Below are positions 9,711 through 11,245 of a stretch of 34,943 nucleotides of DNA, piece after piece (positions within the stretch are counted from its first letter, which is position 1; each line of letters starts with the position of its first letter). Origin of the DNA: an uncultured Bacillota bacterium (GTDB lineage: Bacteria > Bacillota > Clostridia > Christensenellales > Borkfalkiaceae). The notes under the pieces were generated by a model, which saw only the letters and a program-made list of their open reading frames with translations, ran no database searches and had not been told where the DNA came from. A program made the translations under genes and the position numbers. The DNA lies in contig CASDPM010000062.1 of the NCBI GenBank assembly GCA_949282465.1, positions 1 through 34,943 of the forward strand. The letters run 5' to 3'.

Positions 9711-9713
9711 AAT

Positions 9714-9895
9714 AATGCCTGCTGTGTTCGATAGGAAAAGTTAAAAAAATCCACAGATAATATAAAAGAAAGCCGATTCCATTACCGAAGAGTGGCGCTC
9801 TTGGTCGGAGTTATGCTCGACCTTTATCAAAAGAGATACAGACGCGGTAAGATAGGCATTCACCTGTTAACGAAACGGGTTATTATTTTGCTTTT
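9714..9895 (+). ncRNA. ssrS: 6S RNA
   Basis: 6S RNA mimics an open promoter and binds the sigma-A/70 RNA polymerase holoenzyme. The segment AAGCCGATTCCATTACC at 9770-9786, then AGAGTGGCGCTC at 9789-9800, closely resembles the E. coli 6S core (GCCGATATTTCATACC, then GTGGCGCTC). It is followed, as in E. coli, by a GG-rich segment and a GAGTTATGCTCG hairpin (E. coli GAGCATGCTCG). The ends pair as a closing stem: AATGCCT (9714-9720) with AGGCATT (9854-9860). A 7-bp hairpin (9862-9880) followed by a T-rich run ends the transcript, for ~180 nt, the normal 6S size. A short open frame crossing this region is not a gene. The similarity is recalled from the known E. coli sequence, not computed. Confidence 0.78.
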
Positions 9896-9941
9896 CCGTC
9901 GGCACGAGTGGGTATTTTTTTGTTTTTTACTTTTTAAACGG

Positions 9942-9986: not shown

Positions 9987-10061
9987 GCCATCATGGTCAA
10001 GCGGTTAAGACGCCGCCCTCTCACGGCGGAAACCGGGGTTCGATTCCCCGTGGTGGTGCCA
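9987..10061 (+). tRNA. tRNA-Glu (anticodon CTC)
   Basis: A 75-nt cloverleaf with encoded CCA. The anticodon stem CCGCC/GGCGG encloses CTCTCAC, giving anticodon CTC (codon GAG). The D-arm GGTCAAGCGGTTAAGAC is typical of tRNA-Glu. The T-arm is CCGGGGTTCGATTCCCCG. The acceptor GCCATCA pairs with TGGTGGT, with G-U at the first pair. Its 3' part is repeated twice downstream (10204-10223 and 10427-10469), which marks this gene as an insertion target. Confidence 0.95.
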
Positions 10062-10083
10062 AAAAGACGAAACACAGGAATTA
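10041..10083 (+). repeat. Direct repeat copy 1: tRNA-Glu 3' end plus flank (43 nt)
   Basis: This 43-nt stretch, from the T-loop of tRNA-Glu through CCA to the loop of its terminator, recurs without mismatch at 10427-10469, 386 nt away. The first 20 nt of the acceptor/CCA part recur again at 10204-10223. It behaves like an attachment site or the target of a duplicative insertion at the tRNA 3' end. Confidence 0.9.
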
Positions 10084-10100
10084 ACCTGTGTTTTTCTTTT
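10071..10100 (+). terminator. Rho-independent terminator of tRNA-Glu
   Basis: AACACAGG / CCTGTGTT forms an 8-bp stem around a 6-nt loop, followed by TTTCTTTT. The left half of this hairpin is included in the downstream 43-nt repeat. Confidence 0.85.
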
Positions 10101-10103
10101 TGC

Positions 10104-10200
10104 TATCTCTACGAGATAGAACGAACCCCAAGGGGTTCTGATTCACTAGCGTGAGACCGCAACCCTTTTGTCGCAAGCGACATTTCCCCTATTAGGGGAA
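10104..10200. repeat. Hairpin array 1: five tandem short palindromes
   Basis: Five consecutive perfect hairpins fill 97 nt: TATCTC/GAGATA (10104-10118), GAACCCC/GGGGTTC (10123-10138), TCAC/GTGA (10143-10154), TGTCGC/GCGACA (10169-10182) and TTCCCC/GGGGAA (10184-10200). The array lies between copy 1 and copy 2 of the tRNA 3' end and has no reading frame. The TCGC-AA-GCGA plus CCCC...GGGG pairing resembles REP/MITE-like intergenic repeats known from gut Clostridia; that resemblance is from memory. Confidence 0.75.
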
Positions 10201-10203
10201 TTA

Positions 10204-10223
10204 CCCCGTGGTGGTGCCAAAAA
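10204..10223 (+). repeat. Direct repeat copy 2: partial tRNA-Glu 3' end (20 nt)
   Basis: CCCCGTGGTGGTGCCAAAAA is identical to 10046-10065, the T-stem, acceptor and CCA end of tRNA-Glu. It lacks the rest of the tRNA. It is followed, like the real tRNA, by a terminator hairpin, but one of unrelated sequence. Confidence 0.88.
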
Positions 10224-10256
10224 TGCCTAATCCTATTTTCAGGGTTAGGCATTTTT
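10221..10256 (+). terminator. Strong terminator-like hairpin after tRNA-end copy 2
   Basis: A 14-bp stem (AAATGCCTAATCCT with AGGGTTAGGCATTT, one G-U) around a 6-nt loop, followed by a T-run. No gene lies directly upstream except read-through from tRNA-Glu. Confidence 0.75.
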
Positions 10257-10298
10257 CGTTATCGCTAAACTTTATCGGCGGAATCGAACGGGTGGGTA

Positions 10299-10418
10299 TC
10301 GCCGACCTATAAGGTACATTGTAATTTGTAATGGTCGGCGACAAACAGTAGTCACCTACTGTTTGCCACACAGGCGTGATAGCAACCACGGAGTGGCGTT
10401 AGTCTTGCTTTTGCAAGA
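10299..10418. repeat. Hairpin array 2: four inverted repeats before tRNA-end copy 3
   Basis: Inverted repeats in order are: TCGCCGACC (10299-10307) with GGTCGGCGA (10333-10341) around a 25-nt loop; CAAACAGTAG/CTACTGTTTG (10342-10365), a perfect 10-bp hairpin; AACCAC/GTGG-GTT around GGA (10384-10400); and TCTTGC/GCAAGA around TTTT (10403-10418). No convincing coding frame. The array leads into the third copy of the tRNA-Glu 3' end at 10427. Confidence 0.7.
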
Positions 10419-10426
10419 TTGCGGAG

Positions 10427-10469
10427 CGATTCCCCGTGGTGGTGCCAAAAAGACGAAACACAGGAATTA
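10427..10469 (+). repeat. Direct repeat copy 3: tRNA-Glu 3' end plus flank (43 nt)
   Basis: Identical over 43 nt to 10041-10083. It includes the left arm of the tRNA terminator (AACACAGG), but the right arm is missing: the identity stops inside the hairpin loop and the IS-end-like sequence begins at the next base. Confidence 0.9.
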
Positions 10470-10513
10470 TGAAATGCACCCCAAAAGTTAGACACTTTAG
10501 GAGGTGCATTTCA
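10470..10513. mobile_element. 44-bp IS-end-like inverted-repeat remnant
   Basis: TGAAATGCACC (10470-10480) and GGTGCATTTCA (10503-10513) are a perfect 11-bp inverted repeat with 22 nt between. The left part, continuing CCAAAAGTTAGAC, resembles terminal inverted repeats of IS3-family elements (CCCCAAAAGTTAGACA type). It looks like an insertion sequence reduced to its two ends. It sits in the loop of the duplicated tRNA terminator. Family assignment is from memory and uncertain. Confidence 0.5.
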
Positions 10514-10531
10514 AAATCGTGGAGTTTTTGT

Positions 10532-11245
10532 TTAATCTTCCTTAAACTTTCTTCTATAAATATCGTTTACCGCATCCTTAAACTTATCGGCAATTTGTTC
10601 TCGGTTTAGCCCTTGCTTTACTAAATCCTGCACGTACATAGGTTTTCCGACGACGATTTTTTTCTTTTTCCTGCCCCAGTACATAGGAAACACGGGTAAG
10701 TCTTCGCCCGTCTTTTTATAGTACTGTTCGGAAAGCATAACAAAGCCCGGCAAGAATTTAGTCATTTCGTCAAAATAGCCTTCGGACGAATCTTCGGGAT
10801 ATATTGACACGGCGTAACCTTTGTCTAACGCATCTAAACTATACTGCAAAGTTCTTCTGAACCTTGCGTCGGGATAAGATGGAAGGATTTTCATACCCCT
10901 ATAAATATAGATGGAAAAAATCGCTTCAAACCATGCTTTCGACGTGGCTTTTGCCTTTGACAAACCGTTCTTTTGTATATAAAAAACGTCACGCAAATAA
11001 CGGAATCTATCTTTATACGTGCCAAGCATAGGGTATGCGCCCCACGTTACGTGGTATATAGGCAAACTAATTTCGTAAACCATAGGCCCTTTTTTATTGT
11101 TATGGTTTGATACGATAATACATTTGTCTGGAAATCTTTCCCCCTCAAACTCAACGTTTTTAACTTTAAAAAAAGGCACTAAAAACTTTTTGACAACTCT
11201 CCAAACCGGCTGTTTGCGTTTAGGAAGTTTCCATTCTTTTTTCAT
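10532..11245 (-). CDS. LPLAT-superfamily (PlsC-like) acyltransferase, variant active site
   Basis: A 237-aa protein with the length and layout of lysophospholipid acyltransferases. Motif I would be NHxxxxD; here it reads SNHNNKKGP (His48 followed at +5 by Gly53), so the histidine remains but the usual aspartate is absent. The later block YPEDSSEGY corresponds to the FPEG region, and LPVFPMYWGRKKKKIVVGKP to the family's C-terminal part. It would acylate glycerolipid or another lipid at the membrane inner face. The gene starts 14 nt after the stop of a ruined degV-like gene on the same strand, so they once formed a pair. The start is preceded by AGGAG at long (~11 nt) spacing. Confidence 0.7.
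   Translation of the reverse strand: MKKEWKLPKRKQPVWRVVKKFLVPFFKVKNVEFEGERFPDKCIIVSNHNNKKGPMVYEISLPIYHVTWGAYPMLGTYKDRFRYLRDVFYIQKNGLSKAKATSKAWFEAIFSIYIYRGMKILPSYPDARFRRTLQYSLDALDKGYAVSIYPEDSSEGYFDEMTKFLPGFVMLSEQYYKKTGEDLPVFPMYWGRKKKKIVVGKPMYVQDLVKQGLNREQIADKFKDAVNDIYRRKFKED

Follow-up and report, generated by a model that had tools for sequence, protein, structure and literature searches.

Small non-coding structured repeats that appear to dock in tRNA loops and accumulate as arrays behind tRNA-Glu(CTC) and other tRNA genes

We analyzed a 34,943-nt stretch of DNA from a gut bacterial genus (hereafter the window) in which the 3' end of a tRNA-Glu(CTC) gene is repeated downstream. Our preferred explanation, to which we assign a probability of roughly 0.6, is that two members of one family of small integrative repeats, non-coding and non-autonomous, lie at this locus, and that such repeats dock in tRNA loops, mostly the T-loop. 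Each docked unit would bring together a duplicate of the 3' end of the tRNA, running from the T-loop or the T-stem as far as CCA, with a terminator, an inverted copy of the T-arm, and a multi-hairpin module that is conserved. Insertion in the T-loop would regenerate a complete tRNA gene with a terminator and shift the old tail and the native terminator downstream, so that units would accumulate as arrays. Site-specific recombination supplied in trans may drive the process, with the folded inverted-T-arm hairpin as its putative substrate, and the units are probably selfish.

A preliminary description of the window had pointed to an exact duplication of the tRNA tail, and this was confirmed: the 43-nt sequence CGATTCCCCGTGGTGGTGCCAAAAAGACGAAACACAGGAATTA lies at 10041-10083 and, with zero mismatches, at 10427-10469, 386 nt away. 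A third, partial copy, the 20-nt CCCCGTGGTGGTGCCAAAAA, lies in between at 10204-10223, so that the copies are spaced 158 and 228 nt apart. Both intervals are hairpin-rich and gene-free, as had been described, with many short perfect hairpins and no ORF of at least 80 aa in either. The features of the locus are as follows.

9987-10061, plus strand: tRNA-Glu(CTC) with encoded CCA, the host (dock) gene (ARAGORN; Rfam RF00005, 61.9 bits)
10041-10083, plus strand: direct repeat copy 1, from the T-loop to 22 nt beyond CCA, 100% identical to 10427-10469
10062-10099, plus strand: tRNA terminator within the first unit, with its stem-loop at 10069-10094
10118-10208, plus strand: unit E1, an A-type hairpin module (covariance model R1, 89.5 bits, E = 2.3e-24, the window copy itself being among the 22 model sequences)
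10204-10223, plus strand: tRNA-Glu tail copy 2, 20 nt (T-stem 3' strand, acceptor strand, CCA, AAAA)
10219-10258, plus strand: terminator-like hairpin and T run of the second unit (inverted repeat 10219-10234/10241-10256)
10278-10429, plus strand: unit E2, the second hairpin module, with inverted T-arm GGAATCGAAC at 10280-10289
10427-10469, plus strand: direct repeat copy 3, the displaced tRNA tail and the first half of the terminator
10466-10517, plus strand: separate palindrome of ~47 nt that interrupts the displaced terminator, multi-copy in this genome

Unit E1 consists of an inverted T-arm (CGAACCCC, 10122-10129), a TAGC-loop hairpin, a TGTCGC/GCGACA hairpin, and a TTCCCCT/AGGGGAA hairpin, and its A-type module is backed by covariation. 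The central hairpin of E2 (10342-10365) is common to C-type modules. By BLAST, the closest relative of E2 is the second unit at tRNA-Val(CAC) of genome G015, and a comparison by eye also revealed a resemblance to the tandem units at tRNA-Glu of G033. In G033, which belongs to another family of the order, three tandem units of ~170 nt follow tRNA-Glu(CTC) (L326), and its tRNA-Glu(TTC) is also trailed by modules related to these units.

The outer 43-nt copy ends half-way into the terminator, at the unrelated 47-nt palindrome. This palindrome, TGAAATGCACCCCAAAAGTTAGACACTTTAGGAGGTGCATTTCA, has many genomic copies, and its interior resembles what we take to be IS150-type ends; it may represent a miniature element or a solo end that interrupted the displaced terminator. 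The presence of the 43-nt repeat on both sides of E1 and E2 suggests that the pair came as one block or that recombination rebuilt it. The next gene after the arrays lies at 10532-11245 on the minus strand, and a 6S RNA gene (9713-9918) is located directly 5' of tRNA-Glu(CTC).

At the gathering score, Rfam recovered only tRNA and 6S RNA from the window, leaving E1 and E2 unmatched, and only tRNA and the ZTP riboswitch from ten other loci of the same genome; a known RNA family was therefore ruled out for the units. A one-off slipped duplication was likewise ruled out, as both window arrays have relatives elsewhere, and because many separate assemblies show the same layout, an assembly artefact is unlikely.

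The expectation that further copies would lie beside other tRNA genes held, and E1 and E2 proved to be members of repeat families and not unique sequence. The window's genome contains two further matches to the first array, one located behind tRNA-Arg(CCT) and the other in the T-loop of a lone tRNA-Arg 3' half; many places within the genus match it as well. The 22 aligned copies of the A module have in common the TAGC-loop hairpin, GACNGCAACCC, a TGTC/GACA hairpin, and TTCCCCTNNNAGGGGAA. Within the genus, the covariance model detected this module in 28 of 44 genomes; across the order, 4 of 297 genomes carry it, 3 of them from the same genus. The C module is present in 30 of the 44 genomes, at most 12 times in any one, and a class-wide search of 391 genomes did not detect it beyond the genus. 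A third module, E, gives strong matches within the genus and weak ones in a handful of the order's other genera. The analysis used tRNA-centred stretches in place of the whole genome; all genomes are metagenome assemblies, and several loci were identified through searches for the feature itself.

A restriction of the A core to the genus was ruled out, as its inner motif is present in at least 116 stretches of Clostridia MAGs, mostly not near tRNAs. Among the matches listed (L151-L267), this motif, ACCCYTTTGTY..RACATTTCCCCTNNNAGGGGAAT, is an interspersed palindromic repeat of many ruminant and gut Clostridia MAGs, often enclosed by varied outer stems such as GTAGGG..CCCTAC; a single match there is to a viral contig with tail-phage-like genes and no tRNA (L267).

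The repeated tails lie behind their own tRNA genes more often than expected by chance. A copy of the gene's own tail (at least 15 of 18 nt, that is, up to 3 mismatches) was present within 450 nt downstream of 14 of the 95 tRNA genes in three genomes of the genus, compared with 11 of 8358 control pairings between tails and the downstream stretches of different isotypes. In a larger set, which is search-biased and includes a few genomes from other families of the order, 35 of 172 tRNA genes carry 42 downstream copies of their own 3' tail. The start of these copies is narrowly placed: 26 begin in the T-loop, 17-21 nt from CCA, and 14 exactly 16 nt from CCA, where the 3' strand of the T-stem begins; the remaining two begin 13 nt from CCA, inside the T-stem, and in the anticodon loop. 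C modules were found behind 18 different tRNA species, and 44 of the 56 with an upstream tRNA begin 41-65 nt past it. As in tRNA-integrated islands, direct repeats of the 3' end bracket the units and the tRNA gene is intact.

Similar modules lie 5' of a few tRNA genes, with breaks in the D-loop, and in G020 and G041 a pseudo-tRNA-Glu with a module in its T-loop precedes an intact tRNA-Glu. The target would therefore be tRNA hairpin loops more generally. At two loci, L056 and L129, the module in the pseudo-tRNA-Glu T-loop is of type B or A, and the intact tRNA-Glu follows within ~170 nt or less. Upstream of the intact tRNA-Arg(CCT) of G000 (contig C108, L009 955-1230), tandem repeats of the 5' half of the gene are each followed by hairpins and an inverted 5'-half copy, the mirror image of the 3' units.

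Read outward from the tRNA, the parts follow one another as terminator, inverted T-arm, hairpin module, tail copy reaching CCA, and second terminator, with a typical unit size of ~160 nt (range about 112-330 nt). The inverted T-arm matches the host gene: exact matches of at least 10 nt to the own tRNA were found in 23 of 49 units, compared with 73 of 1968 pairings with other tRNAs. In the C modules, the inverted T-arm and the tail copy form a closing stem of at least 8 nt in 17 of 26 cases, as against 29 of 622 mismatched pairings, and 22 different closing stems are represented. The module itself is conserved as a fold. In the A module, 98.3% of cells are paired, 7 of 16 pairs have changed on both sides, and the covariation score is 0.275 compared with 0.097 after shuffling and no more than 0.077 when slid. 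For the main C hairpin, the paired fraction is 98.4% and 6 of 10 pairs show such two-sided change; the first C helix is poorly placed in the C alignment. This covariation indicates that the folded form is under selection, as RNA or as single-stranded DNA. Set beside integron cassettes, which end in a folded inverted-repeat site with a variable centre, the units have complementary ends and hairpins, but a multi-branched fold and ends specific to the host tRNA.

The preliminary description had read the window as serial, non-autonomous insertion in which a tRNA-like end is restored, and had proposed a comparison with empty sites in relatives. Sister loci support this reading through an empty site, a newer unit, and the many isotypes involved, and the window units fit it in containing no ORF; for the exact window locus, no empty site was found among the compared genomes. 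The empty site is that of tRNA-Glu(TTC), which lacks a unit in G002 (L316). Its flank there matches the flank beyond the displaced tail of two other genomes, G003 (84% over 167 nt) and G023 (87% over 68 nt), and the terminators adjoining tRNA-Glu(TTC) in G003 and G023 are unrelated to the native terminator of G002. Because the native terminator and flank are found beyond the displaced tail and the tRNA-adjacent terminators are unrelated to them, the unit came with a terminator of its own and restored the 3' end of the tRNA. The same picture was obtained, weakly, for tRNA-Leu(TAA) (87.5% over 32 nt); few empty sites are comparable, because terminators diverge fast.

Accretion can be followed at tRNA-Met, which is trailed by terminator F and unit F in G003 and by terminator E, unit E, a tail, terminator F, and unit F' in G044, an arrangement in which the newer unit sits nearer the tRNA and the older one further out. 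Sequence comparison thus far shows where the units insert, that the tail is regenerated, that the native terminator is displaced, and that arrays grow beside the tRNA. Two observations count against the docking reading. In the freshest cases, the direct repeat continues past CCA into the native terminator and flank: at tRNA-Lys(CTT) of G008 it measures 20 + 61 nt, with the 61 nt in native flank, at tRNA-Glu of G009 it reaches 55 nt beyond CCA (one mismatch), and in the window 22 nt; such repeats look like a long target-site duplication, not simple att exchange, and so keep a template-switch or long-stagger origin in consideration. In addition, at tRNA-Ser(GCT) and tRNA-Glu(TTC), two species have a common first terminator and last flank with different modules in between, which needs replacement of the module in place.

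A third difficulty is that no recombinase can be assigned to the units. The window units lack an integrase, as first described, and contain no ORF of at least 80 aa. Genome G011 (96% complete, with several units) has only one tyrosine recombinase match, a XerS-like protein. This protein is common to G003, G011, G041, and G049, lying beside a lexA-like gene in three of them, and was not found in G015 (98% complete, with units), where the only match is a divergent integrase. No conserved dedicated recombinase was found across the genomes searched, nor an integron integrase, the conserved recombinase scoring best as XerS-like and far under the integron-integrase cut-offs. Reverse transcriptase (PF00078) was absent from all nine genomes examined, eight of which are at least 90% complete, and Y1 transposase (PF01797) was present in one of six genomes with units. 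On these counts, a reverse-transcriptase helper and a Y1-transposase helper (REP-type movement) were both ruled out in the genomes examined.

Template switching would dispense with a dedicated enzyme altogether. A polymerase stalled at the hairpins of a tRNA gene would copy a hairpin repeat from elsewhere, snap back, and resume upstream; the snap-back would yield the inverted T-arm and the upstream resumption the long direct repeat, and the survivors would be only those outcomes that keep a working tRNA. The extension of direct repeats 22 to 61 nt into the native flank, the position of the short inverted T-arm next to the module, the 5'-side units with D-loop breaks and the modules in pseudo-tRNA T-loops, and the enzyme searches, which returned neither a reverse transcriptase nor a conserved dedicated recombinase, are all consistent with such events. 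We nevertheless consider this origin unlikely, because almost every boundary lies at one of the same few positions, 16 or 19-21 nt from CCA, the distance from tRNA end to C module is confined as described above, the terminators of the tRNA-Glu(TTC) units are unrelated to the native one, and the module fold is under selection.

The docking reading also concerns how modules spread. In a tree of 71 C modules built without the tRNA-derived ends, which has few columns and many unresolved forks, genome labels required 44 changes (shuffled mean 56.7, minimum 53 of 100) and tRNA labels 36 (shuffled mean 40.8, minimum 37 of 100). The module trees track the genome more than the tRNA, and modules move among the tRNA genes of one genome with ends that fit each host tRNA.

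This behavior bears on whether the units are instead functional structured RNA genes, with a read-through transcript that folds into a multi-branched structure, a T-arm strand in its closing stem, and the tRNA tail with CCA as its 3' end, the copies being retained for a role such as binding or sensing the cognate tRNA. The fold is conserved with compensatory changes, unpaired stretches such as GGAGAAAAT are conserved as well, each end has a terminator, the inverted T-arm runs antisense to its cognate tRNA, and tail copies are often identical over 18-21 nt despite two unrelated terminators. Set against this are the patchy presence between species at the same tRNA, the swapping of modules at one tRNA and their spread among tRNAs within a genome, the degenerate tails of several copies, the genes of unrelated function between units, and the failure of Rfam to match the window units, and we regard such a role as quite improbable.

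Several arrays have genes between or beside the units. At tRNA-Ser(GCT) of G049 (L335 12328-19693), four tail copies are spread across 7.4 kb and delimit three segments: the first with an HNH_4 endonuclease, a methyltransferase, and a MauJ-like gene; the second with a small helix-turn-helix gene; and the third with a CAP12/Pycsar-type TIR gene and a type II DNA methyltransferase accompanied by a 179-aa gene, possibly the matching endonuclease. The genes between units include defence genes. At tRNA-Leu(CAA) of G051, a 415-aa gene is followed by an A unit. In the window's genome, a tRNA-Arg 3' half beginning at the anticodon is separated from tRNA-Arg(CCT) by 19 kb of carbohydrate-related genes. 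A ZTP riboswitch (RF01750, L010 1487-1568) lies directly after the A-bearing tRNA-Arg 3' half, ahead of an open reading frame.

At tRNA-Arg(ACG) of G043, an inovirus prophage with an integrase is followed by a displaced tail and then by E and A units. The prophage (L334 1827-11317, about 9.4 kb) encodes the integrase, a G2P-type Rep, and a Zot-like ATPase; it is integrated ahead of the older E and A units, and a Fic gene lies further out. That the units are ends of this inovirus was ruled out, since its right end lacks a module. The arrangement there, with a tyrosine integrase and the right att copy directly before the E and A units, together with the tRNA-bounded gene-bearing segments in G000, G049, and G051, could be taken to mean that the units are immobile scars of phages or islands once integrated in tRNA T-loops, but this is very unlikely, given that the right end of the prophage has neither inverted T-arm nor module, that the same structured modules occur at many tRNA genes even in genomes with one or no recognisable integrase, and that the tRNA-Glu(TTC) case leans toward a precise empty site with no larger element in its history.

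Sequence comparison also shows a structure-constrained fold, the spread of one module across the tRNA genes of a genome, and genes between units. A tentative extension, which we hold to be possible though rather doubtful, is a gene-capture platform with tRNA genes as docks and folded, host-tRNA-specific hairpins as sites, in which T-loop insertion regenerates the tRNA and cassette arrays gather defence and other genes through an activity distinct from both integron integrases and reverse transcriptases.

As a working analogy, we use tandem islands at an RNA gene. Islands at tRNA and tmRNA genes are defined by regenerated targets with displaced fragments (the Islander definition, PMC4383910), and the units resemble them in that the target is split in a loop, its 3' end is regenerated, and a displaced fragment marks the far end; they differ in being about 112-330 nt long, gene-free, folded repeats with an inverted T-arm and no assigned integrase. 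The ssrA islands of Dehalococcoides include tandem members without an integration module, and these cis-mobilizable elements share tandem accretion behind one RNA gene and a ~20-bp direct repeat (PMC3146451). There, one dedicated recombinase serves one target gene (PMC3146451), whereas the present units occur at many tRNA genes, have no dedicated enzyme assigned to them, and are hairpin-only with a conserved structure. Size, absence of genes, structural constraint, an inverted target-specific arm, and many tRNA targets are foreign to both island types.

Integron cassettes with attC appear similar in that a folded inverted-repeat element ends gene-bearing or gene-less cassettes and the array grows beside a fixed gene; the present units are instead multi-branched, with ends that match the host tRNA and a tRNA gene as the dock, and no integron integrase was found. 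REP/BIME sequences, MITEs, and other palindromic bacterial repeats are also short, non-coding, structured, and multi-copy, and the A-module core is similarly interspersed in many Clostridia MAGs, but those repeats are not tied to tRNA loops, regenerate no gene end, and have a Y1 transposase counterpart here in only the one genome of six. Hairpin-forming elements of sponge mitochondria are mobile-looking palindromes with stems kept by selection, in organelle DNA and without docking at tRNA T-loops or a regenerated tail (PMC2800124). A literature search, covering largely journals outside subscription, returned no description of such repeats at tRNA genes, and a repeat family of this kind does not seem to have been described before.

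tRNA genes are classic integration sites, and the integrators of tRNA genes known to us are kilobases long and bring or borrow an integrase. The present units, down to ~112 nt and gene-free, rebuild the 3' end of the tRNA and come with a terminator; both of their arms match the host tRNA, and they are spread over many tRNA types of one genus. If insertion depends on the fold, they would represent a very small natural substrate for tRNA-directed DNA insertion. The units would also account for part of the tRNA gene fragments mislabelled by annotation pipelines, and the arrays are a place to look for captured defence genes.
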